NCBI GenBank assembly: GCA_019779905.1
Contig: JABAKE010000001.1
Span: forward strand, 124,001 to 188,000
Length of the DNA stretch: 64,000 bases
DNA from: Modestobacter lapidis
GTDB taxonomy: Bacteria; Actinomycetota; Actinomycetes; Mycobacteriales; Geodermatophilaceae
Reading direction: 5' to 3'
Shown: one piece after another, positions 50,424 to 62,200 of the stretch
How positions within the stretch are numbered: the stretch's first letter is position 1
Layout of the letters: the number at the start of each line of letters is the position of its first letter
Notes under the pieces: generated by a model
What the model was told of the DNA's origin: nothing
Database searches by the model: none
The model's input: the letters and a program-made list of their open reading frames with translations, nothing else
Made by a program: the position numbers and the translations under genes

Positions 50424-51989
50424 CTAGTCGCGTCGCTCGAAGGCGGTCGCCATCGTCGCCTGCTCCTCCAGCGCCGCACCGATCCGGGCCTGCACGGTGT
50501 CGAGCTCGCCGATGATCTCGCTGGTGGCGTGGATGCCCTCGGCCACCGACCGGCTGCTGGCCTGGATGCCGGCGATCTGCTCGGAGACCCGCTGGGTGGC
50601 GTTGGCGGTCTCCCGCGCCAGGTCCTTCACCTCGCTGGCGACGACGGCGAAGCCCTTGCCCAGCTCGCCGGCGCGGGCGGCCTCGATGGTGGCGTTCAGC
50701 GCCAGCAGGTTCGTCTGGTCGGCGATCCCGGAGATGATCCTGATGACCTCGCCGACGGCGGCCGACGCCTGGCCGAGCGCCTCCACCTCGGCGGTCATCG
50801 TCGACGCCTGGCCGACCGCGTGCTCCGCCACCCGGCCGGCGTCCCCGGCGGCCTCGCGCAGCCGCTCGACGGTGTCCAGCAGCGCCAGGGCGTTGGCCGA
50901 GTCCTCCTCCGAGCGGCGCAGCACGTCCAGCCGCTGGGAGACCAGCTGCTGCACGTTGCGCAGCGCCGAGGCGCGGGACTCCGACAGGTCGATGGTCTCG
51001 GTGACGAAGAAGTCCATCGTGCCGACCACCCGGCCGCCGACGATCAGCGGGAAGCAGACGCCGGACCGGACGCCGGCGCGCTGCGCGGCCGGAGCCCGCA
51101 CGCAGTCGGTCATCTCGCCGATGTCCCGGACGAAGTACAGGTCGCGGGACCGCCAGGTGCGGCCGGACAGCCCCACGCCCTCGGAGAAGCTGGCGTTCAG
51201 CGTGACCTTGCGGAACTCCTCGCCCGCCGAACCGGACTCCTGCTGGAAACGCAGCACGTTGGCCACCGGGTCCAGCGCCCAGTAGGAGCCGTAGGCCCAG
51301 CCGAACGACTCGCGCACCGTGTCCAGCGCGATCCTCAGCGCCGCCTGCTGGTCCCGGGCGGCGCCCATCTCCGCGACGACACTGGTCACGGCCAGCCGGT
51401 CGTTGAGGCTCTGGCTCAGCTGGGCAGTGGCCAGCGCCGCCCGGCGCGCGTGCGCGAGCAGCCGCCCCAGCGAGTTCCACTTCTCCTCCCGGCCGCCGAA
51501 GAAGGGCAGCTCGTCGCGGCTGTAGTACTCGGTGAGCGCCACGACCCGGTGGCCCTCGACGACGGGGAGGACGCACCCACGCCGCGCACCTGCCGACAGG
51601 GCGCCCTGCCAGCGCAGGCAGACGCCCGGGTCGCTGGTGGAGTCGGTCAGGACCGCCTCCTTCGTCCGGATCGCCTGGCCGCCGTACCCGTCGGTCGCCG
51701 TCAGCCGGTCCACCCGGCCGCCGGGGGAGGTCGCCATCCCCGGAACGAGATCGCCGTACTCGCCCCGGAGACGGAACGCACCGTTCGCGTCGGGCAACCA
51801 GACCGCGCCGTAGGCCAGCCCCAGCGAGCCGACCAGCGACTCGGTGCTCTTCCGGTAGGCGTCCACCTCGTCGGCGACGCCGCGGTCGAGGACGGCGATC
51901 ACGGTCTCCAGCGCCTCGACGTCGCGGGGCATCTCCACCGGGGCCGCCTTCACCGGGTTGCTGTTGCGCCGCCGCATCGCCATCTCCAT
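50424..51989 (-). CDS. Soluble GAF-domain methyl-accepting chemotaxis protein
   Basis: The 521-residue protein has two GAF-like sensor domains (about 30-175 and 190-345) and a C-terminal MCP signalling region: [49 protein letters not shown], the hairpin tip. No membrane segment or signal peptide is visible, so it senses inside the cell. No che genes lie nearby. A small ligand, gas or redox signal is likely; residues for haem or flavin cannot be picked out. Confidence 0.88.
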
Positions 51990-52168
51990 CTCGCCAAGAA
52001 CCCTGCGGGGCGCCCTGCCGGGCCGCCGCGCTGCTCCCCGTCCGGTTGCTGCGCAACCGCGTCCGGGAAGGACTTCGGCAGCGGACCGGCGGTGTTGAGC
52101 CGGGCCCCGCCGGAGTACGGACGGAGCCGGGACGGAAGACCGCTCGCCAGGAGGGCGCCGGTCCACTA

Positions 52169-52185
52169 GCGTTCGCCTGGCGAAC
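52169..52185. promoter_or_regulatory. Candidate IclR operator, site 1 (autoregulation)
   Basis: GCGTTCGCCTGGCGAAC: the 15-bp core GTTCGCC-T-GGCGAAC is a perfect inverted repeat around one base. It lies 39 bp before the IclR start codon and overlaps a TAGCGT box (52167-52172). The same motif (AGCGTTCG-N5-CGAA) stands at 57868 and 58084. Confidence 0.65.
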
Positions 52186-52223
52186 CCGTTGCAGCAGCAG
52201 ATCACCGCCCCGTGGAGGACCCG

Positions 52224-53060
52224 ATGAGCGTCGCCGAAGCCGCCGGCCGGTGGGACGAGGGCACCCGGTCGGTGCTGCCCGGGCCCGGGTCCGATGCCCC
52301 GGCCACCGAGTACGTCCGCGCGCTCGACCGGGGGCTGGCGGTGGTCCGCGCCTTCGACGCCCAGCACCCGCGCCGCAGCCTGTCCGAGGTCGCCCGCGCG
52401 GTCGGGTTGGCCCCCGCGACCGCCCGCCGGCTGCTGCACACGCTGCAGGCACTGGACTACGTGCGCACCGACGGGCTGGTCTGGTGGCTGCGGCCCCGCC
52501 TGCTGGAGCTCGGGCAGGCATACCTGGCCACCACCACGGTCTGGGACGTCGTCCGCGAGCGGCTGACCCGGCTGGCCGGTGACGTGCGCGAGACGTCGTC
52601 CGCGGGCGTCCTGGAGGGCGACGACGTGCTCTACGTCGTCCGGGTGCCCTACCGCCGGATCATGTCGATGAACGTCGAGGTGGGCACCCGTATCCCCGCC
52701 TTCGCCTCCTCCATGGGCCGGGTGCTGCTGGCCGCGCTGGATGCCGACGCCCTGGAGGCGACCCTCGCCCGGGCCGACCTGCGGCCGATCACCCCGCACA
52801 CCGTCTCCTCGGTGACCGCCCTCCGTGATCTGGTCACCGAGGTGCGCGAGCAGGGCTGGTGCCTGATGGAGCAGGAACTGGAGGCGGGCATCCAGTGCGT
52901 CGCTGCCCCGGTGCACGACGCCTCCGGTCGGGTCGTCGCCGCGGTCACCGTCTCCACGCACACCACCCGGGTGCGGCCCGGTGAGCTCCGCGATCGGCTG
53001 CTGCCGGCGCTGCTCGAGGCCGCCGCGGACATCGACGAGGACCTCCGCCGCCGCGGCTGA
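52224..53060 (+). CDS. IclR family transcriptional regulator
   Basis: The 278-residue regulator has a winged helix ([51 protein letters not shown]) and a C-terminal effector domain ([32 protein letters not shown] to [14 protein letters not shown]). This group includes PcaR/PobR-type regulators of aromatic acid breakdown. ATG 52224 has GGAGG 6 nt upstream; a GTG 12 nt earlier is less likely. Its operon partners are the importer and the catabolic genes that follow; candidate operators lie in front of all three units. Confidence 0.9.
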
Positions 53061-53081
53061 CCGTCGGCGGTGGCCGGTCGG

Positions 53082-54113
53082 TCAGCCGCGCGGGCCCACC
53101 CGGTACCCCACCGGGAACAGTTCGACCCGACCTCGGGTGAGGCCCCAGAGGCCCTTCGGCGCGACCAGCGTGATCACCACGGCGACGACCCCGACGACGA
53201 CCAGGTACCAGTTGCCCAGCTCGGCCAGGGTGTCCTGCAGCAGATAGAACACGATGGCCCCCACGAGGGGCCCCTCGATGGTGCCGATCCCGCCGATCAC
53301 CACGATGAAGATCATCATCGCCGAGTAGTCGACGCTGAAGATCGACCCCGGCTGCACCCGCAGGGTGTTGGCCACGATCATCGCGCCGGCCAGCCCGCAC
53401 CCGGCGGCGGCCACCACGTAGACCAGTCGCTTGGCCCGGTCGACCGCCACGCCGGAGGAGGCGGCCGCGGTGGGGTCGTCGCGGATGGCGGTCAGGGCCA
53501 GCCCGGTGCGGGAGCGCATCAGCAGGTAGACGCCCAGCACCACCACGACGGCGATGGTCAGCGACATCCAGTAGACGTAGGCGATCCGGAACACCGGGTC
53601 CAGGCCGGAGAACGCAGTGAGCGAGGCGCCGGACCCGGCGCCCACCGCGTCGACCTGGGTGACCAGCAACCGGACCACTTCGGCGATGACCCAGGTGCCG
53701 ATCGCGAAGTAGCCACCGGTCAGCCGGAAGGCCAGGTAGGACGTCGGCCAGGCGACCAGGCCGCAGACGACGGCGGCGACCGGCACCGCCAGGAACGGAT
53801 CGAGGCCCAGGTTGGTGGCGAGGTACACCAGCCCGTACCCACCGATGCCGATGAAAGCCTGCTGGCCGATCGAGATCATCCCGCCGTAGCCGGCCAGCAG
53901 GTTCCACATGGTGCCCAGCACCACCAGGGAGAACAGGCCGACGAGGTCGATCTGGGTGCCCCGGGAGGACATGAAGGGGAGGTAGACCAGCACCGCGACG
54001 ACGGCGACCATCGCGACCGCCCCGATCCGGGCGGACCGCCCGCCGCGACGGACCTTCGGCGGCGTCGTCCCCGCGGGGCGGGTGGCCCCGGCGGCCGGCT
54101 GGACGCCGGTCAC
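53082..54113 (-). CDS. Branched-chain-type ABC importer permease, LivM-like
   Basis: The 343-residue protein has about ten helices, with the LivM motif TMWNLLAGYGGMISIGQQAFIGIGGY and the late GIGTIEGPLVGAIVFYLLQD. It overlaps the LivH-like gene as GTGA. It is the last of a five-gene importer unit (SBP, LivG, LivF, LivH, LivM). The neighbouring catabolic enzymes suggest an aromatic acid, not an amino acid, as cargo. Confidence 0.9.
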   Translation of the reverse strand: MTGVQPAAGATRPAGTTPPKVRRGGRSARIGAVAMVAVVAVLVYLPFMSSRGTQIDLVGLFSLVVLGTMWNLLAGYGGMISIGQQAFIGIGGYGLVYLATNLGLDPFLAVPVAAVVCGLVAWPTSYLAFRLTGGYFAIGTWVIAEVVRLLVTQVDAVGAGSGASLTAFSGLDPVFRIAYVYWMSLTIAVVVVLGVYLLMRSRTGLALTAIRDDPTAAASSGVAVDRAKRLVYVVAAAGCGLAGAMIVANTLRVQPGSIFSVDYSAMMIFIVVIGGIGTIEGPLVGAIVFYLLQDTLAELGNWYLVVVGVVAVVITLVAPKGLWGLTRGRVELFPVGYRVGPRG

Positions 54114-54979
54114 GCGGTCACCGCCGAGGGCAGCAGGCCGCGCGGGCGGACCGCGAGGACGGCGAGGAAGACGAGGTGCCCGGCGAGGACGCCGTACGCC
54201 GGGTCGATGGCCGCGCCGAGCCCCTGGGCCACCCCGAGCACCACGCCGCCGAGGAGGGTGCCCCACAGCGAGCCGAGACCGCCGATGACCACCGCCTCGA
54301 AGGCGAAGATCAGCGTGGTCGCTCCCGCGCTGGGGTCGAAGGTGCTGCGGCTGCCGAGGAAGACCCCGGCGATGGCCACCGTGCCCAGCGCGATCGCCGT
54401 GGCCACCGCGTAGAGGCGGCGGTTGTCGATGCCCATCAGCTGGGCGGCCTCCTGGTCGTCACTGGTGGCCCGCATCGCCCGGCCGGTTCGGGTACGGGCG
54501 AGGAACTGGCCCAGCCCGGCGATGACCAGCACCCCGGCCGCGGCGGCGAGCAGCGGGAACCAGCCGATGGCGAGCCCGTCGGTCAGCTCGATGCTGGCAC
54601 CGCCGAACGCGCCGACGTCCAGCCGCTGGGTGTCGGCGGAGAAGGTCTCCAGCAGGAGGTTCTGGATGACGATGGCCAGGCCGAAGGTGACCAGCAGGGG
54701 AGCGAGCTCACCACCGCGCAGGGCCCGGTCCAGCAGGGCCCGCTGCAGCGCGTAGCCGAGGGCGGCCATGGCCGGCACCACCACCAGCAGCGACAGGAAC
54801 GGGTTCCAGCCCAGGTGTTCACCCAGCAGCAGCGAGCCGTAGGCGGCCAGCACCGCGAGCACGCCGTGGGCGAGGTTGACGATGCGCATCACGCCGAACA
54901 CGAGCGAGAGCCCGGCGGCGACCAGGGCGTACAGCCCGCCGAGCAGCACCCCCTGCACGACGGCGTTGACGGTGTTCAC
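54110..54979 (-). CDS. Branched-chain-type ABC importer permease, LivH-like
   Basis: The 289-residue protein shows VVQGVLLGGLYALVAAGLSLVFGVMRIVNLAHG, the LivH hallmark, and EAVVIGGLGSLWGTLLGG near the end, the loop that meets the ATPases. Eight helices can be seen. It overlaps the LivM-like gene by 4 nt. Confidence 0.9.
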   Translation of the reverse strand: MNTVNAVVQGVLLGGLYALVAAGLSLVFGVMRIVNLAHGVLAVLAAYGSLLLGEHLGWNPFLSLLVVVPAMAALGYALQRALLDRALRGGELAPLLVTFGLAIVIQNLLLETFSADTQRLDVGAFGGASIELTDGLAIGWFPLLAAAAGVLVIAGLGQFLARTRTGRAMRATSDDQEAAQLMGIDNRRLYAVATAIALGTVAIAGVFLGSRSTFDPSAGATTLIFAFEAVVIGGLGSLWGTLLGGVVLGVAQGLGAAIDPAYGVLAGHLVFLAVLAVRPRGLLPSAVTA

Positions 54980-55010
54980 GGCGCTCCCTGGGGTGCGGGG
55001 ACGGGGCGGC

Positions 55011-55724
55011 TCACCGGCGCACCCCGAAATAGGCGGCGGCGAGCTCGGCCGGGTCGATCCGGTCGGCGGCCCCCTCGAGGACGGTGCGTCCCTCCAGCAG
55101 GCACTGCACCCGGTCGGCGACGGAGATCGCCTGGTGCACGTCCTGTTCCACGACGAGCACGGTGGTGCCCTGCTCGGTGATCCGGGGGAGGGCGGCGTAC
55201 AGCTGGCGGACGATCACCGGCGCCAGTCCGAGGGAGACCTCGTCGAGCAGCAACAGGCGGGGGTTCGCCATCAGCGAGCGGCCGATCGCGACCGCCTGCT
55301 GCTCGCCGCCGGACAGGTTGGCCGCCGGCCGGGCCCGCCGCTCGGCGACCAGGGGGAACAGCTCGTAGACCGCCGGTAGGTCCCACGGCCCGGGACGCCG
55401 CGCATAGGCGCCCACCTGGAGGTTCTCCTCGACGGTCAGGCTGGGGAACAGCCGCCGGCCTTCCGGGCACAGCGAGATGCCGCTGCCGACGCGCTGGTGG
55501 GCCGACAGCGCCGTCACCACCCGGCCGTCGAACCGGACCTCGCCCCGGGTCGGCCGCAGCACCCCGGCGATCGTCTTGAGCAGCGTCGACTTGCCGGCCC
55601 CGTTGGCGCCGATGACGGCCAGTGTCTCGCCCTCGGCGACGGTCACGGTGAGCCCGCGCAGCGCCGGGACGTCGCCGTACCCGGCATCGACGTCGTCGAC
55701 GTGCAGCAGCGGCGCGGAACTCAC
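55011..55724 (-). CDS. ABC importer ATPase, LivF-like
   Basis: The 237-residue ATPase has Walker A (AVIGANGAGKSTLLKT), signature NLSGGEQQAVAIGRS, Walker B (RLLLLDEVSLGLAP) and an H-loop-region LVVEQDVHQA. The GTG at 55724 opens the domain. The gap to livG holds a 69-bp insert bounded by a 14-bp direct repeat; without it, the livG stop and this GTG would overlap as GTGA. Confidence 0.92.
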   Translation of the reverse strand: MSSAPLLHVDDVDAGYGDVPALRGLTVTVAEGETLAVIGANGAGKSTLLKTIAGVLRPTRGEVRFDGRVVTALSAHQRVGSGISLCPEGRRLFPSLTVEENLQVGAYARRPGPWDLPAVYELFPLVAERRARPAANLSGGEQQAVAIGRSLMANPRLLLLDEVSLGLAPVIVRQLYAALPRITEQGTTVLVVEQDVHQAISVADRVQCLLEGRTVLEGAADRIDPAELAAAYFGVRR

Positions 55725-55802
55725 GTGGCCTCCTCGCTGGCGCTCGTCGGTCGCGTTCGCGGACCTGCTGTGCTCGTTCGTGAGCTCGCTCACGTGGCCT
55801 CC
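55720..55802. repeat. gcgag-type insert with 14-bp flanking direct repeats between livG and livF
   Basis: CTCACGTGGCCTCC occurs at 55720-55733 and again at 55789-55802. The 55 bp between contain CGAGCGCCAGCGA on the minus strand, shared with the repeat block at 4351. The right copy holds the livG stop and the left copy the livF start, so removing one repeat and the insert restores a GTGA overlap typical of this operon. The pattern looks like an insertion with target duplication, though slippage is possible. Confidence 0.55.
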
Positions 55803-56545
55803 ACCACCGGGTCGTCGCCGCCGATCGTCGACCCCAGGTAGACCTCGACCACCTGGGGATCGGCGAGCACGGCGTGCGGGTCGCCCACGGCGAGCACCCG
55901 GCCGTAGGTGAGGCACAGCAGCCGGGTCACCACCGCGACCAGCGCGTGCACGACGTGCTCGATCCACACCACGGCGACGCCCTGGGCGACCAGGCCCCGC
56001 ACCGTCTCCACCAGGGCGGGGACCTCGGCCTCGGTGAGGCCGCCGGCGATCTCGTCCAGCAGCACCAGCCGCGGCTCGGTGGCCAGGGCCCGGGCCAGCT
56101 CCAGCCGCTTGCGGTCCAGCAGCCGCAGCGATCCGGCCGGGACGTCGGCCTGGTTCCCGAGGCCCGCGGTCTCCAGCGCCCCCCAGGCGCAGTCGGTGGC
56201 CGCCCGGCCGCTGTGGCCGCCGCCGAAGGAGGCGGCCACCAGCGCGTTCTCCAGCACCGTCATCCCGCCGAAGGGGCGGGGGATCTGGTAGCTGCGCCCC
56301 ATCCCGGCGCGGCAGCGGGCCGCCGCGCCGGCCCGGGTGACGTCGGCGCCGTCGAAAGTGACCGATCCGGCGTCGGGGCGCAGCACCCCGTTGACCACGT
56401 TGAGCAGGGTGGACTTCCCGGCCCCGTTCGGACCGACGATCCCGAACGCCTCACCCGGGGCGAGGGAGAAGGAGACGTCGTCGAGGACGGTCAGGCGGCC
56501 GAACCGCTTGCCGACCCCGGCGACCTCCAGGAGCGGTGCCGCCAT
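55790..56545 (-). CDS. ABC importer ATPase, LivG-like
   Basis: The 251-residue ATPase has Walker A (GIVGPNGAGKSTLLNV), Walker B (RLVLLDEIAGGLTEAE) and an H-loop IEHVVHALVAV. The signature region reads PAGSLRLLDRKRLELARAL, where the expected LSGG-type sequence is degenerate (SLRLLDRKR). In LivG this region is usually LSYGQQKRLE, so the variation is notable. It begins overlapping the SBP stop by one base. Confidence 0.88.
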   Translation of the reverse strand: MAAPLLEVAGVGKRFGRLTVLDDVSFSLAPGEAFGIVGPNGAGKSTLLNVVNGVLRPDAGSVTFDGADVTRAGAAARCRAGMGRSYQIPRPFGGMTVLENALVAASFGGGHSGRAATDCAWGALETAGLGNQADVPAGSLRLLDRKRLELARALATEPRLVLLDEIAGGLTEAEVPALVETVRGLVAQGVAVVWIEHVVHALVAVVTRLLCLTYGRVLAVGDPHAVLADPQVVEVYLGSTIGGDDPVVEAT

Positions 56546-57843
56546 CAGTTCAGCGGCTCGACCGTGCCGGCGGTGGGGATCTGGGGGGCTTCGCTGTTGC
56601 TCACGATGACGAGCTCGAAGGGGTGCTCGCCGCCCTCGGTGGCCCGCCACTGGCCGCCGACCAGCGGGGTCTTGGCGACGTTGGGCACCGGGCCCGAGGT
56701 CCAGTCGACGTCGCCGGCGATGGTCGGTGTCGACAGCGTGGCGACGGCGTCGGCGATGGCCTGCGCCTCGGTGCTGTCGGCCTCGGTGAGTGCCGCGACG
56801 GCGACCTCGAACAGTGCGTGCACGATGCCGACCGGCTGGGTCCACTGCCGGCCGGTCTCGGCCTCGTAGGCGTCGGCCAGCTCCTGGGCGGACTGCCCGG
56901 TCAGCGAGGAGGAGAACGGGTGCTGCGGGCTCCACCACACCTCCGAGCTCAGCCCGTCGGCCGAGGCTCCGATCGCCTCGACGGCGGAGGGGAAGAGCAG
57001 CGCCTTGGCGATCGTGGCGATCCGGGGGGTGTAGCCCTGCTGCTGGGCCTGCTGCCAGAACGTGGTGAAGTCCGGCGGGATGGGCACACCGGCCAGGATC
57101 TGGGCGTCGGCGGCCTGGAAGGCCGAGATCTGCGCACTGAAGTCCTGGGTGCCGTTCTCGTAGAGGCCCGGGTCGACGATGGTGTATCCGTTGGGCTGCA
57201 CCGCGGTCGGGAAGTCCGCGCTCCAGGCGTTGCCGTCGGGGTCGTTGGGCCACAGGGCGCCGACGACCTTGTTGGTCTCGACCTGGCCCCACATGTCCTG
57301 GTAGACGGCCTCGACGTCCTCCAGGCCCCAGAAGAAGTGGTACGTCCAGTCGAAGGAGTCGCCCTCCTCCGCGCCGCGGCCGAAGAAGAACGGCTGCCAG
57401 GGCGCCGCGGTGGTGATGCAGGGCACCCCGTTGGCCTCGCACTGGTCGGCGACCGGGTTGACGGTGTCCGGCGTGGAGGCGGCCAGGATCAGGTCGGCGC
57501 CGACGTCGTTGATCAGCTCGGCGGTCACCTCGCCGGCCCGCACGGAGTCCGACTGGGTGTCCCGGACCTCGATCTCGACGTCGTAGGAGGTGCCGCCCAG
57601 CTCCAGCGGATTGTCGGCGAAGTAGGCCGCCATCTGGTCGACGACGAAGGCATCGGCCTCGCCGAAGGGAGCCAGTGCGCCGCTCTGCGGGGTCACGTAG
57701 CCGATGGTCAGCGTGGCGTCGTCACCGCCGCCGCCACCCCCGTCGTCGTCGCCGAGCCCGCCACCGCAGGCGGTGAGGGTGAGCAGACCGGCGCCGAGGG
57801 CGGCCAGCCCGCGGACCGGGAAGCGGGAGGCGGGTGTGCGCAC
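56545..57843 (-). CDS. ABC importer substrate-binding lipoprotein
   Basis: The 432-residue protein has a lipoprotein signal (LAALGAGLLTLTACGGG), a glycine/aspartate-rich linker and a type I periplasmic-binding fold (LTIGYVTPQSGALAPFGEADAF, AELINDVGADLILAASTPDTVNPVADQCEANGVPCI). GAGGAGATCACC precedes the GTG at 57843. It stands first in the importer unit, with a candidate IclR operator in front of it. Ligand: probably an aromatic acid, by context only. Confidence 0.9.
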   Translation of the reverse strand: MRTPASRFPVRGLAALGAGLLTLTACGGGLGDDDGGGGGGDDATLTIGYVTPQSGALAPFGEADAFVVDQMAAYFADNPLELGGTSYDVEIEVRDTQSDSVRAGEVTAELINDVGADLILAASTPDTVNPVADQCEANGVPCITTAAPWQPFFFGRGAEEGDSFDWTYHFFWGLEDVEAVYQDMWGQVETNKVVGALWPNDPDGNAWSADFPTAVQPNGYTIVDPGLYENGTQDFSAQISAFQAADAQILAGVPIPPDFTTFWQQAQQQGYTPRIATIAKALLFPSAVEAIGASADGLSSEVWWSPQHPFSSSLTGQSAQELADAYEAETGRQWTQPVGIVHALFEVAVAALTEADSTEAQAIADAVATLSTPTIAGDVDWTSGPVPNVAKTPLVGGQWRATEGGEHPFELVIVSNSEAPQIPTAGTVEPLN

Positions 57844-57867
57844 GGTGATCTCCTCGTCGAGTTCGCA

Positions 57868-57884
57868 GCGTTCGTCAGCCGAAG
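57868..57884. promoter_or_regulatory. Candidate IclR operator, site 2 (importer operon)
   Basis: GCGTTCGTCAGCCGAAG shows the same TTCG-N5-CGAA frame and AGCGTTCG flank as the other two sites. It lies 25-41 bp before the SBP start, read toward it, and just downstream of a TTGACA-N18-TTCACT promoter (minus strand, 57935-57906). Repressor here would block elongation or initiation. Confidence 0.6.
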
Positions 57885-57905
57885 GGGAATCCGGCTGGCG
57901 GGCGG

Positions 57906-57935
57906 AGTGAACTGCTCGGATGGTTGCTGTGTCAA
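57906..57935 (-). promoter_or_regulatory. Promoter of the importer operon
   Basis: On the minus strand TTGACA (57935-57930) is followed after 18 nt by TTCACT (57911-57906). The -35 is a perfect consensus. The predicted start lies about 55 bp before the SBP gene and about 15 bp before the candidate operator. Confidence 0.5.
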
Positions 57936-58004
57936 CGGTCACAGCGCCTCCGGTACGGAGACGTGATCTCGTGCGGCGGGCCGGTTCCGTCCTACGGTCG
58001 ACGG

Positions 58005-58040
58005 GTGCGCCGCACCGTGCCGCGGAACGCCAGTGGTTGA
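58005..58040 (+). other. Possible leaderless 11-codon leader ORF
   Basis: A TACGGT box (57993-57998) ends 6 nt before a GTG at 58005 that opens a short frame (MRRTVPRNASG, stop at 58040). The spacing matches the leaderless starts elsewhere in the window. It lies 90 bp before the monooxygenase gene. It may be chance. Confidence 0.2.
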
Positions 58041-58059
58041 CGTGACGCACGGCACGACG

Positions 58060-58087
58060 TTGACTGCACCGCACACCGAAGCAGCGT
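58060..58087 (+). promoter_or_regulatory. Candidate promoter of the catabolic operon
   Basis: TTGACT (58060-58065) and CAGCGT (58082-58087) are spaced by 16 nt. The -10 is overlapped by the candidate IclR operator at 58084-58100, the classic position for repression. Confidence 0.4.
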
Positions 58088-58100
58088 TCGCCTGCCGAAG
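58084..58100. promoter_or_regulatory. Candidate IclR operator, site 3 (catabolic operon)
   Basis: GCGTTCGCCTGCCGAAG differs from site 1 only at two of 17 positions. It lies 30-46 bp before the monooxygenase start and overlaps its putative -10 box. Confidence 0.65.
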
Positions 58101-58129: not shown

Positions 58130-59899
58130 ATGCCCACCGTCGACACCGACGTCCTCGTCATCGGGAGCGGTCCGGCCGGCTCGACCGCCGCGCTCGCGCT
58201 GGCCACCTACGGGGTGCGCACCACGGTGATCACCAAGTACGGCCGGCTGGCCGACACCCCGCGGGCGCACATCACCAACCAGCGGACGATGGAGGTCCTC
58301 CGCGATCTGGGCGTGGAGGAGGAGGTGATGGCCGAGGCCACCCCGCAGCACCTGATGGGCAACCTCGTGTACTGCACCTCGATCGCCGGCGAGGAGCTGG
58401 GCCGGCTGCATGCCTGGGGCACCCGCCCCGACCGGCTGGCCGACTACACGGCGGCCAGCCCGACCCGGATCTGTGACATGCCGCAGGACCTGATGGAGCC
58501 GGTGCTGCTGCACAACGCGCAGTCCCGCGGGGCGACGGTCCGCTTCGACACCGAGTACCTGTCCCTGGACCAGGACGACGACGGCGTCACGGTGCACGTG
58601 CGCGACCGCATCCGGGGCGACGAGTACGACATCCGGGCGAAGTACGTGGTCGGCGCCGACGGTGGCCGGAGCCTGGTCGCCGAGCACCTGGGGCTGCCGC
58701 TGCAGGGCCAGATGGGTGTGGGCGGCAGCATCAACATCGTGTTCGAGGCCGACCTGTCCCACCTGGTCGCCGACCGGCCCTCGGTCCTGTACTGGGTGCT
58801 GCAGCCCGGTGCCGACGTGGGGGGCATCGGTGCCGGGCTGGTCCGGATGGTCCGCCCCTGGCACAAGTGGTTGATCGTGTGGGGTTACGACATCAACGGC
58901 CCGGCTCCCGACCTGACCGAGGAGTACGCGCTGTCCATCGTGCGGAAGCTGGTGGGCGACGACTCGGTCCCGGTGACGATCAGCTCCAGCTCTGCCTGGA
59001 CGGTCAACCACGTGTATGCCGAGCGGTACTCCGCCGGCCGGGTGTTCTGCGCCGGGGACGCCGTCCACCGGCACCCGCCATCGAACGGGCTGGGGTCCAA
59101 CACCTCCATCCAGGACTCCTACAACCTGGCCTGGAAGCTGGCCGCGGTCGTGCGGGGCCAGGCCGGCCCCGGGCTGCTGGAGACCTACTCCGCCGAGCGC
59201 GCCCCGGTCGGCAGGCAGGTGGTCGACCGGGCCAACCAGAGCATCGCCGACACCGCCCGCATCTTCGACGCCCTCGGGCTGCTCGACACCGAGGACCCCG
59301 AGCTGATGGTCGAGCACATGGCGGCCCGCAAGGACGACACGGTGGCGGCCGAGGAGCAGCGCACCGCGCTGCGCGAGGCCATCGCGTTCAAGGACTACGA
59401 GTTCAACGCCCACGGGGTCGAGCTGGACCAGCGCTACGAGTCGACCGCGGTCGTCCCCGACGGGACGGCACCGGAGGAGCCGGCCCGCGACCCGCAGTTG
59501 TACTCGCAGGCCACCTCGCGCCCCGGTGCGAAGCTGCCGCATGCGTGGGTGACCACCGACCACCGCCGCCAGGTCTCCACCCTCGACCTGGCCGGCTCCG
59601 GCCGGTTCACCGTGCTCACCGGGATCGGTGGCGACAGCTGGCAGCGGGCCGCGACGGTGGTGGGGGAGCGGCTCGGCGTCGAGGTCGAGGCGGTCGTGAT
59701 CGGCCCCGGGCGTCGCTTCGAGGACCTCTACGGCGACTGGGCGCGCGTGCGCGGCATCGCCGACGGCGGGGCGCTGCTGGTCCGCCCGGACGGCTACGTC
59801 GCCGCCCGGTTCGTCGGGCCGCTGCCCGACGCCGAAGCCGAGGCCGCCCTCGAGTCGGCCCTGCGCACGGTGCTGGACCGGGCCGAGGCGCCGGCATGA
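58130..59899 (+). CDS. FAD-dependent aromatic monooxygenase (TfdB/PheA-like)
   Basis: The 589-residue flavoprotein hydroxylase has the FAD motif VLVIGSGPAGSTAALALA, the DG motif YVVGADGGRSLVAEHLGLP and the second FAD motif CAGDAVHRHPPSNGLGSNTSIQDSYNLAWKLA. A C-terminal thioredoxin-like domain (FTVLTGIGGDSWQRA to GGALLVRPDGYVAARF) marks the phenol / 2,4-dichlorophenol / resorcinol hydroxylase group. It overlaps the maleylacetate reductase gene as ATGA. A phenolic substrate leading to hydroxyquinol is the best guess. Confidence 0.9.
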   Translation: MPTVDTDVLVIGSGPAGSTAALALATYGVRTTVITKYGRLADTPRAHITNQRTMEVLRDLGVEEEVMAEATPQHLMGNLVYCTSIAGEELGRLHAWGTRPDRLADYTAASPTRICDMPQDLMEPVLLHNAQSRGATVRFDTEYLSLDQDDDGVTVHVRDRIRGDEYDIRAKYVVGADGGRSLVAEHLGLPLQGQMGVGGSINIVFEADLSHLVADRPSVLYWVLQPGADVGGIGAGLVRMVRPWHKWLIVWGYDINGPAPDLTEEYALSIVRKLVGDDSVPVTISSSSAWTVNHVYAERYSAGRVFCAGDAVHRHPPSNGLGSNTSIQDSYNLAWKLAAVVRGQAGPGLLETYSAERAPVGRQVVDRANQSIADTARIFDALGLLDTEDPELMVEHMAARKDDTVAAEEQRTALREAIAFKDYEFNAHGVELDQRYESTAVVPDGTAPEEPARDPQLYSQATSRPGAKLPHAWVTTDHRRQVSTLDLAGSGRFTVLTGIGGDSWQRAATVVGERLGVEVEAVVIGPGRRFEDLYGDWARVRGIADGGALLVRPDGYVAARFVGPLPDAEAEAALESALRTVLDRAEAPA

Positions 59900-60966
59900 T
59901 CCGCGGCTTCACCTACCAGGCGCTGCCGATGCGGGTGGTGTTCGGCGCCGGGGCCCTGGCGAGGCTGCCCGAGGAGGTCGCCGCGCTCGGCCTCGACCGG
60001 GTGCTCGTGCTGTGCTCGCCCGAGCAGGCCGACACCGGCAAGCTGGTGGCCGAGGCGCTCGGGGACCGGGCCGCCGGCGTACTGGCGGAGGCCCGGATGC
60101 ACGTGCCGATCGAGGTGGCGACCCAGGCCCGCGCCCTGGCCGCCGAGCTCGGTGCCGATGGTTGCGTGGCCGTCGGCGGGGGGTCGGCGATCGGGCTGGG
60201 CAAGGCGATCGCCCTGGAGCACGGGCTGCCGGTGATCGCCGTCCCGACCACGTACGCCGGCTCGGAGATGACCCCGGTGTGGGGGCTGACCGAGGCGGGT
60301 GCGAAGCGCACCGGGCGGGACGAGCGGGTGCTGCCGCGCAGCGTGCTCTACGACGCCGAGCTCACCTGCACCCTGCCCGCGGGGATGTCGGTGACCAGCG
60401 GAATGAACGCGATGGCGCACGCGGTGGAAGGGCTCTACGCGCCCGACGCGACGCCGATCATCTCGCTGATGGCCGAGGAGGGGGTGCGGGCGATGGCCGG
60501 GGCGCTGCCCCGGGTGGTCGCCGACGGCGCCGACCTCGATGCCCGCAGCGACGCCCAGTACGCGGCCTGGCTGTGCGGCGGGGTGCTGGCCGCGACCACG
60601 ATGTCGCTGCACCACAAGCTGTGCCACGCCCTGGGCGGCACGCTGGACCTGCCGCACGCCCAGACCCACACGGTTGTGCTGCCGCATGCGCTGGCGTTCA
60701 ACCAGCCAGCGGCACCGGACGCGGTCGCGGCGCTGAGCCGGGCCCTGGGTGGGGTCGACGACCCCGCCGGGGAGCTGTGGACCCTCGCCGGGCGGTTGGG
60801 TGCACCCCGGTCGCTGCGCGAGCTCGGCATGGCCGAGGACGATGTCCCACGGATCGCCGAGCTGGCTGTCGCCAACCCCTACGCCAACCCGCGACCGGTC
60901 ACCCTGGAGGGCGTCACCGCCCTGCTGCGGGCGGCCTGGGCAGGAGAGCCGCCGGCTGCCGGCTGA
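59896..60966 (+). CDS. Maleylacetate reductase
   Basis: The 356-residue iron-type alcohol dehydrogenase family enzyme reduces maleylacetate to 3-oxoadipate at the end of hydroxyquinol and chlorocatechol routes. Signatures are VGGGSAIGLGKAIAL, PTTYAGSEMTPVWGLTEAGAKRTGRDERVLPR, and the histidines in GMNAMAHAVEGLY and LHHKLCHALGGTLDLPHAQTHTVVLPHAL. No intradiol dioxygenase, the enzyme that would link the monooxygenase to this step, lies in the window. Confidence 0.9.
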   Translation: MIRGFTYQALPMRVVFGAGALARLPEEVAALGLDRVLVLCSPEQADTGKLVAEALGDRAAGVLAEARMHVPIEVATQARALAAELGADGCVAVGGGSAIGLGKAIALEHGLPVIAVPTTYAGSEMTPVWGLTEAGAKRTGRDERVLPRSVLYDAELTCTLPAGMSVTSGMNAMAHAVEGLYAPDATPIISLMAEEGVRAMAGALPRVVADGADLDARSDAQYAAWLCGGVLAATTMSLHHKLCHALGGTLDLPHAQTHTVVLPHALAFNQPAAPDAVAALSRALGGVDDPAGELWTLAGRLGAPRSLRELGMAEDDVPRIAELAVANPYANPRPVTLEGVTALLRAAWAGEPPAAG

Positions 60967-61045: not shown

Positions 61046-62200
61046 GTGACGTGGAAGCGGGCCGTGTTCGCGTTGTTCGCCGTGGCGGCGGGCACCAACG
61101 TCCCGACCCCGCTGCTGCTCGTCTACCAGGAGCGGCTCGACCTGTCGCCCGAACTGCTCACCGCGCTGTTCGGCTTCTACGCCGCCGGTCTGGTGCCGGC
61201 GCTGTTCCTGGGTGGTCCGCTGTCCGACCGGCTCGGCCGCCGTCGGGTCGCCTTCCCCGGTATCGCCCTGTCGGCGCTCGCCTCCGTGGCCTTCGCCCTG
61301 GCCGGCGACTCGGTGACGCTGCTGTTCGGGGCGCGGTTCCTCCAGGGTGTCGTCAGCGGTGTCGTGTTCAGCGTGGTCAGCGCCTGGGTCGGTGAGCTGT
61401 CGCTGACGGCCGGGGAGGGGGCCGGCGGACGGCGGGCCGCGGTCGCGATGACCGCCGGCTTCTCGATCGGCCCGTTCGTCAGCGGGGTGCTCGGTCAGTA
61501 CGCTCCGGCCCCCACGGTGCTGCCCTACCTGCTGCACACGGTGCTCGTCGTCATCGGCCTGACGCTCGCCAGGCGGCTCCCGGAGACCGTCGAGGTCGCC
61601 CCCGGCCCGCGGCATCCGGCCGGCGGGCCGGCTGCACCGCTGATCGGGCGGGGTGACGGCCTCGTGGTGCTGACCGTCCTGGCGCCGGTGGCCGTGTGCG
61701 TCTACGCGCTGCCGACCACGGTGGTCTCGGCGGTCCCGCTGCTCGTCGAGCTCCCGGGCGCCGGCGTCCTGGTCACCGGGGTGGTGGCCGGCGCCACGCT
61801 GGGCGCCGGCACGCTGGTCGCGGGCCTGCAGCGCCGGCTCGGGCCGTGGACCGCTGTCGCCGGAACCGTGCTCGGGGTCGCCGGCTTCGCTGCGGCCGCG
61901 GCCTTCGCCGTCACCACGGCCCTGCCGTGGCTGGTCGCGGCCTCCCTGCTGCTGGGCGCGGGTGGGGGGTTGTGCCTCGCGGCGGGCCTGACGCTCACCG
62001 CCCGGCTCGCTGCGCCCTCCCGCCGTGGCGCGCTCACGTCGCTGTTCCTCGCCTGTGCCTACGTCGGCTTCGCCGCGCCGTACCTGGTGGCCGAGGCGGC
62101 GCGGGCGACCTCGGCCGCGGTGCCCCTGACGGTGGCCGCGGGGCTGACCGCGCTGCTCACCGTGCGGCTGCTGCCGGTGGCCCGTCGCGGCGAGCTGTAG
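61046..62200 (+). CDS. MFS transporter (12-TM)
   Basis: The 384-residue protein has twelve helices, with MFS motif A in GGPLSDRLGRRRVAFPG. The N-terminus (FALFAVAAGTNVPTPLLLVYQERLDLSPELL) resembles efflux-type actinobacterial carriers. It could export an aromatic intermediate, but has its own promoter and no IclR site. Confidence 0.82.
   Translation: MTWKRAVFALFAVAAGTNVPTPLLLVYQERLDLSPELLTALFGFYAAGLVPALFLGGPLSDRLGRRRVAFPGIALSALASVAFALAGDSVTLLFGARFLQGVVSGVVFSVVSAWVGELSLTAGEGAGGRRAAVAMTAGFSIGPFVSGVLGQYAPAPTVLPYLLHTVLVVIGLTLARRLPETVEVAPGPRHPAGGPAAPLIGRGDGLVVLTVLAPVAVCVYALPTTVVSAVPLLVELPGAGVLVTGVVAGATLGAGTLVAGLQRRLGPWTAVAGTVLGVAGFAAAAAFAVTTALPWLVAASLLLGAGGGLCLAAGLTLTARLAAPSRRGALTSLFLACAYVGFAAPYLVAEAARATSAAVPLTVAAGLTALLTVRLLPVARRGEL

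Follow-up and report, generated by a model that had tools for sequence, protein, structure and literature searches.

The question raised by this locus is whether three copies of one inverted motif, lying before an iclR gene and two operons next to it, are the operators of a single regulon. The locus is part of a 64,000-nucleotide stretch of Modestobacter lapidis DNA (assembly GCA_019779905.1, contig JABAKE010000001.1, positions 124,001 to 188,000), which as a whole we call the window; a model's sequence-only reading had picked out the motif and taken it to mark an undescribed IclR regulon. With a probability of about 0.8, we find that the IclR-family protein encoded at 52224-53060 uses the three palindromes as its operators. 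The sites would unite as one regulon its own gene, an importer operon of the branched-chain (liv) type headed by the gene of a substrate-binding protein (SBP), and an operon for a monooxygenase (MO) and a maleylacetate reductase (MAR). The predicted regulator is a separate orthologous group within the PcaR/PcaU/PobR subfamily. The parts of this proposal differ in strength: the pairing of regulator and putative operators is very probable, repression as the predicted mode of control is likely, and a hydroxyquinol-type inducer, suggested by analogy, has about an even chance.

The motif AGCGTTCG-N5-CGAA is found at 52168-52184, 57867-57883 and 58083-58099, exactly where the sequence-only reading had placed it, and its three copies do stand one each before iclR, the importer operon and the MO-MAR operon. 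By chance 0.01 copies would be expected in the window, and none of 100 shuffles reaches three. No further copy had been noticed in the window; there is none, nor is there one elsewhere in the genome of 4,784,129 bases, where all three places belong to this cluster and the reversed control gives 0. The genome-wide count proposed as a check has thus turned up no unrelated copies of the full motif. With two mismatches allowed, the search of the same genome gives 19 places versus 4 in the control. The perfect 15-bp palindrome reported before iclR is contained in site 1 as GTTCGCCTGGCGAAC. The distances of 25-46 bp to the start codons given earlier agree with ours: measured from the site centre they are 46 nt for iclR (ATG at 52224; an in-frame GTG at 52212 would shorten this by 12 nt), 34 nt for the importer and 37 nt for MO. 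For IclR sites in general, most centres are described as lying 20-80 nt ahead of the start codon (PMC8222616), in agreement with the window sites. As to the recognition unit, the 17-letter motif including AGC was rejected: relatives retain only GTTCG-N5-CGAA(C) and have lost or never had the AGC flank in common, so that the conserved element, a putative binding site, is this shorter one.

Conservation with the regulator is the first line of evidence. A search over 146 genomes gave 92 matches to the regulator at 1e-30, its own genome included. Among the matches listed, orthologues with 70-94% identity are found in six genomes (G079, G025, G066, G022, G035 and G054); named loci comprise five at 70-94%, from four Klenkia species and one Modestobacter metagenome-assembled genome (MAG), and three distant ones at 27-31%. 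Both genera belong to Geodermatophilaceae. The window IclR and its six orthologues form one clade (support 100/100), and each of the seven iclR genes adjoins genes of the phenol/hydroxyquinol type, namely MO, a putative hydroxyquinol 1,2-dioxygenase (HQDO) and/or MAR. G079, G025, G066 and G054 retain MO, HQDO, MAR and the importer, and G035 retains HQDO and MAR. In G022, a fragmented MAG, the regulator is split over two contigs, accompanied by MAR, an MO gene with an internal deletion and remnants of the importer region.

We refer to TTCG-N5-CGAA with either GTTCG or CGAAC as the flanked palindrome. It is present at most 200 nt before MO and before SBP in 5/5 intact clusters each, that is in 10/10 promoters, whereas shuffles (n=300) averaged 0.02 and never exceeded 1. 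This count omits the incomplete clusters of G022 and G035, although the MO remnant of the former and the HQDO gene of the latter are also preceded by the palindrome. Before iclR it is present in five of the seven clade members; for G025 the start was set at the ATG of MTAAPR, and a longer frame would place the site inside the gene. In the regulator loci of the six relatives (L038-L043), all 13 matches to TTCG-N5-CGAA lie before cluster genes, while the stretches of six class-level relatives (L158-L163) have none. The sites are kept in relatives with the same IclR; the lack of conservation that the sequence-only reading had named as refuting its claim is not seen. Among the plasmid-record matches listed (15 of 139 and 15 of 247), there was no named relative of known function. 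As a separate observation, the MO gene of G022 (Modestobacter MAG RYN_176; L041 5922-6721) has a large internal deletion and its importer is mostly lost, either by decay or as an assembly artefact; its MO operator is retained (L041), as is its iclR operator on a separate contig (L058).

A natural control is provided by genomes that have the same operon but not this IclR. In 112 genomes of the family, 45 match MO at 1e-150; 15 of these, the window included, are at least 83% identical, whereas the best MO match in the other 30 is only about 60%. Ten of the 15 lack this IclR: none is encoded in the stretch around MO, and the best match in the whole genome is at most 46% in eight and absent at 1e-30 in two. 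In eight of the ten, a related AraC-type gene adjoins instead (L150 and seven whose proteins are 74-84% identical to that of L150), the AraC domain being confirmed by Pfam in all but L156 (7 of 8); the remaining two, G167 and G063, have neither this IclR nor the AraC-type gene in the stretch examined. The flanked palindrome is missing from all ten MO promoters of these clusters. The AraC group has a direct repeat, [TC]CGTGCA[AG]-N14-18-[AG]TGCAGG, before MO in 8/8 clusters and before SBP in the 2/2 with an adjoining importer (descriptive counts). This argues that the putative operator goes with the regulator and not with the operon. Three changes of the IclR label are required on the MO tree, at least two of them on supported branches, and a tree that keeps the five IclR-type rows together is rejected only marginally (p-AU 0.048). 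The two supported independent contrasts of regulator both go in the expected direction for the flanked palindrome (2/2), and a mean of 1.7 of 2 do so for the bare core.

The architecture of the promoters points to how the regulator may act. TTGACR-N17/18-TTSACT is found in 12/12 promoters of MO, SBP and HQDO in the IclR group (G022 and G035 included), and in 0/10 promoters of the AraC group; it is also absent from G167 and G063. From the second box to the start of the operator core there are 20, 21 or 31 nt at MO and HQDO promoters (the MO gaps leave out G054, whose promoter matched only in a longer segment) and 22 nt at SBP promoters, except for 36 nt at that of G079. In the window, site 2 follows a TTGACA promoter, as had been stated, 22 nt downstream of TTGACA-N18-TTCACT, and site 3 lies 21 nt downstream of the conserved TTGACG-N17-TTGACT. 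The accompanying claim that sites 1 and 3 overlap a -10 box holds for site 1 (TAGCGT) and fails for site 3, which overlaps no recognisable -10 and has the conserved boxes upstream of it. Consensus-like promoters followed by an operator fit a repressor that blocks initiation or elongation, and the AraC-type versions, which lack such promoters, fit activation there. A mechanism can be envisaged in which GTTCG-N5-CGAA(C) is the target of a regulator dimer. At the MO and importer promoters the dimer would have the second box of TTGACR-N17/18-TTSACT about 20-36 nt upstream of it and would block promoter escape or elongation, and at its own gene it would cover the -10 of iclR. A phenolic substrate or hydroxyquinol (1,2,4-trihydroxybenzene), the likely inducers by analogy with IhtR of Corynebacterium glutamicum, would then release the repressor. 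At the catabolic promoter, binding might be tightened by a third half-site, YGAA, located six bases before TTCG in 7/7 MO and HQDO promoters and in none of the palindrome-bearing iclR (0/5) and SBP (0/5) promoters; the SBP promoters have CGNA at this position in 5/5 (by eye).

This third half-site also speaks for another mode of control, in which the regulator would use the same operators and mainly activate the catabolic operon, repressing only itself. PobR is an activator, and PcaU, which has a third half-site too, is reportedly one as well. The regulator belongs to the same subfamily (TIGR02431), and PcaU, PobR and HmgR operators are described as carrying an external half-site repeat, needed for the binding of PcaU (PMC8222616). 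Owing to this resemblance, activation at the MO promoter has to be considered; it is nonetheless unlikely, because the operator lies downstream of the conserved TTGACR-N17/18-TTSACT, which would be unusual for an activator. We therefore keep to repression, while acknowledging that TTSACT makes a poor -10. Several other observations weigh against our interpretation along with this one and the reported role of PcaU. Since the alignments had been viewed before patterns were drawn up for the promoter, the third half-site and the direct repeat, the counts of these are descriptive. G054 and G035 lack the palindrome at the iclR promoter. In 3/10 IclR-less clusters, all of the AraC group, a bare TTCG-N5-CGAA does occur before MO, within the repeat of that group. 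Finally, a sign test cannot be significant because only two independent contrasts are supported.

A different concern is whether the sites belong to this regulator at all. One or more other IclR paralogues encoded in this genome might use them instead: three match the regulator with E-values of 2.9e-47 or better, and the one on contig C10 passes TIGR02431 and could bind the same sites, although the two on contig C275 do not pass; moreover, 10/23 loci of less close relatives have a near-identical TTCG-N5-CGAA before their own iclR. Yet the site at the MO promoter is present in 5/5 clusters with the clade and in 0/10 without it, even though eight of the ten genomes hold a paralogue with 42-46% identity, and two further sites on C275 of the same genome have a different spacer, CACAA. 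We regard an assignment to paralogues as quite improbable. Short palindromes also arise by chance, and the bare core is a case in point: its three places in the window (expected 0.22) are part of ten in the genome, against seven in the reversed control. Nor is the genome-wide count of GTTCG-N5-CGAA higher in regulator-bearing genomes, another point on the opposite side. In places tallied by hand with both strands merged, it is present in 17/17 family genomes, with or without this IclR: the seven with the regulator have 36 places, 17 of them in the cluster, and the ten without it have 49 places, 0 at the MO operon. Five out-of-cluster places (in G010, G167, G079, G054 and G025) viewed by eye showed no evident related cluster. 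Core counts consequently do not discriminate, and it is position and conservation that carry the argument. On these grounds, with 0.01 full motifs expected in the window and 10/10 promoters conserved versus 0.02 in shuffles, chance as the source of the three copies is next to negligible.

If the palindromes are operators of this IclR, the comparison with the AraC group acquires a wider meaning. The IclR group combines palindromes with consensus-like promoters upstream of them, and the AraC group combines direct repeats with the lack of such promoters. We slightly favour the view that, within the family, an IclR repressor and an AraC-type activator have replaced one another in control of the same two-operon regulon, a Liv-type importer plus a phenol/hydroxyquinol operon, both promoters being re-fitted each time. 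If true, this would offer a natural set in which to study the handover of a regulon and perhaps a switch in the sign of its control, with the contrast in otherwise orthologous operons supplying matched promoters for regulon transfer between unrelated regulators. Among the open-licence papers listed for AraC/IclR regulator replacement, we found none on this regulon.

The features of the cluster are collected in Table 1.

Table 1. Putative operators, promoter elements and genes of the cluster; positions count from the first letter of the window, and conservation refers to clusters with this IclR.
Feature	Position	Strand	Remarks
-10-like TAGCGT of iclR	52167..52172	+	overlaps left half of operator 1; all 5/5 palindrome-bearing iclR promoters have TANCGT here (by eye)
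Putative operator 1, GTTCGCCTGGCGAAC, perfect 15-bp palindrome before iclR	52171..52185	.	before iclR in 5/7 clade members
iclR, PcaR/PcaU/PobR-subfamily regulator, 278 aa	52224..53060	+	TIGR02431, PF09339, PF01614
Branched-chain-type ABC (ATP-binding cassette) importer permease, LivM-like	53082..54113	-	PF02653, 116.5 bits; orthologue in same order in G079, G025, G066, G054
Branched-chain-type ABC importer permease, LivH-like	54110..54979	-	PF02653, 99.2 bits; order kept in G079, G025, G066, G054
ABC importer ATPase, LivF-like	55011..55724	-	PF00005; order kept in G079, G025, G066, G054
ABC importer ATPase, LivG-like	55790..56545	-	PF00005, PF12399; order kept in G079, G025, G066, G054
Importer SBP, first gene of importer operon	56545..57843	-	PF13458, 129.1 bits
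Putative operator 2 core, importer-strand reading TTCGGCTGACGAA	57871..57883	.	before SBP in 5/5 intact clusters
Importer promoter second box TTCACT	57906..57911	-	5/5 intact clusters
Importer promoter -35-like TTGACA	57930..57935	-	18 nt from TTCACT; 5/5 intact clusters
MO promoter -35-like TTGACG	58037..58042	+	5/5 intact clusters
MO promoter second box TTGACT	58060..58065	+	17 nt after TTGACG; TTSACT in 5/5 intact clusters
Third half-site CGAA	58077..58080	+	6 nt before TTCG of operator 3; not mentioned in the sequence-only reading
Putative operator 3 core TTCGCCTGCCGAA	58087..58099	.	before MO in 5/5 intact clusters
FAD-dependent phenol-type MO	58130..59899	+	PF01494, PF21274
MAR	59896..60966	+	identity from solved relatives

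The iclR product scores 295.2 bits with TIGR02431 (cut-off 284.75), which the G079 orthologue passes as well (294.3 bits), and its IclR helix-turn-helix and effector domains are both above gathering scores. The best solved relatives of MO are 2-hydroxybiphenyl 3-monooxygenase (623.7 bits) and 2,4-dichlorophenol 6-monooxygenase (522.3 bits). Those of MAR are 3jzd (427 bits), named as an iron-containing alcohol dehydrogenase, and the maleylacetate reductases 3w5s and 3hl0 (about 349 bits); MAR passes no NCBIfam cut-off. The product of maleylacetate reductase, 3-oxoadipate, enters the beta-ketoadipate pathway. In the relatives, an intradiol dioxygenase gene (PF04444 and PF00775) lies between MO and MAR. 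Its NCBIfam matches are catechol and chlorocatechol dioxygenase models, all far below cut-off, and the enzyme is taken as HQDO because its gene adjoins MAR. The window operon has no dioxygenase gene, the stop of MO overlapping the start of MAR (59890-59900). The same genome encodes two HQDO homologues, one with 61% identity on C275 and one with 79% on contig C138, where its neighbours are a LysR gene, a second MAR (84%) and a further monooxygenase (34%); ring cleavage for the window operon is probably supplied in trans. Apart from these genes, an interspersed repeat about 70 bp long is present between livF and livG (55720-55802); it has 35 matches in the genome including this one, some of them tandem at 77-base spacing (C184:409655-409878 and C10:133018-133318). 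Downstream of MAR lies a major facilitator superfamily transporter gene (61046-62200), 81% identical in G022, where a CstA gene sits between. A methyl-accepting chemotaxis protein with GAF domains (PF00015, PF13185) is encoded beside iclR at 50424-51980, with no regulon link shown.

Seven of the ten bare-core places in the genome were left out of the regulon. One of them, the palindrome TTTTTCGCAGGACGAAAA at C309:1142 (L076 1142), precedes matches to hydroxypyruvate isomerase (below cut-off), tartronate semialdehyde reductase and glyoxylate carboligase; since these neighbours are of the glyoxylate type, the site probably belongs to another IclR and is a candidate operator of a glyoxylate-type one. 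The two C275 palindromes, GTTCGCACAACGAA (L070 17135 and L075 9974), have the spacer CACAA and each a CGAAC half-site upstream; their distances from an IclR gene are about 7 kb for one and about 30 kb for the other. A LigB-type extradiol dioxygenase is encoded next to an IclR gene in L070, and a gene weakly matching a rhizopine-type binding protein follows the L075 site at about 1.4 kb. These palindromes are perhaps operators of another PcaR-like paralogue. Around the remaining places (C90:23850, C164:7777 and two on C184), no linked aromatic gene was seen by eye in a rough list of open reading frames, which in places picks over-long starts and wrong strands and serves for orientation only.

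How, then, does this regulon compare with known systems? The operator of C. glutamicum PcaR, an IclR-family protein associated with protocatechuate/4-hydroxybenzoate, is given as GTTCGC-N3-GCGAAC (PMC8222616, Table 1), and window site 1 fits it letter for letter. PcaR gives its name to the subfamily TIGR02431, and the likeness is one of operator motif, not of protein comparison; in place of pca genes, those linked in the window are an importer and a phenol monooxygenase/MAR operon. The IclR group 1 consensus is GKTYCRYW3-4RYGRAMC (PMC8222616). By eye, site 1 agrees with its half-sites KTYCRY/RYGRAM in 12/12 letters, and sites 2 and 3 agree in the full left half and in 4/6 letters of the right half; the window sites depart from the consensus in the outer G and in centres that do not consist of W throughout. 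PcaU and PobR of Acinetobacter baylyi, members of the same subfamily, bind a palindrome with an external third half-site (PMC8222616), as seen at the window MO promoter. They belong to a different pathway, however, and in the window the iclR and importer promoters lack the third half-site and the predicted promoter lies upstream of the operator. In C. glutamicum, the IclR repressor IhtR (Cg3388) controls a MAR/ring-cleavage operon, and 1,2,4-trihydroxybenzene relieves its binding (PMC7764795). Likened here by description only, it is similarly an IclR-type regulator tied to MAR and ring-cleavage dioxygenase genes, but its targets are iolT2-rhcM2D2. TsdR of Rhodococcus jostii RHA1, an IclR-type regulator of gamma-resorcylate utilisation, has the motif GTGTGRYTSSMRTCAYAC (PMC8222616, Table 1), of another type than the window palindrome.

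A further parallel is found in G130 (L067), where an IclR passing TIGR02431 is accompanied, as in the window, by GTTCG-N5-CGAAC before iclR and the SBP-liv operon; instead of the window-type operon, however, it has genes for protocatechuate 3,4-dioxygenase (TIGR02422, TIGR02423) and 4-hydroxybenzoate 3-monooxygenase (NF006091), all above cut-off. Of the 23 loci of less close relatives mentioned above (L008-L030, about 48-54% identical), ten have TTCG-N5-CGAA before iclR, and one of these ten combines it with protocatechuate genes and a Liv-type importer. Given these loci and the PcaR-type motif of the literature, the operator type is not new. Of the assertion that the regulon is undescribed, what stands is that the regulon and the orthologous group appear new, the open-licence papers listed having yielded no description of this IclR regulon or of hydroxyquinol-type regulation in Geodermatophilaceae; what does not stand is novelty of the operator, a known PcaR/PcaU-type IclR motif. 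For the hydroxyquinol-type breakdown of aromatics in this family, the analysis supplies a regulator with operators and targets that can be put to the test. Compared with its counterparts, the regulon appears to be of a known kind while being itself new, and its distinctive feature appears to be the exchange of regulators.

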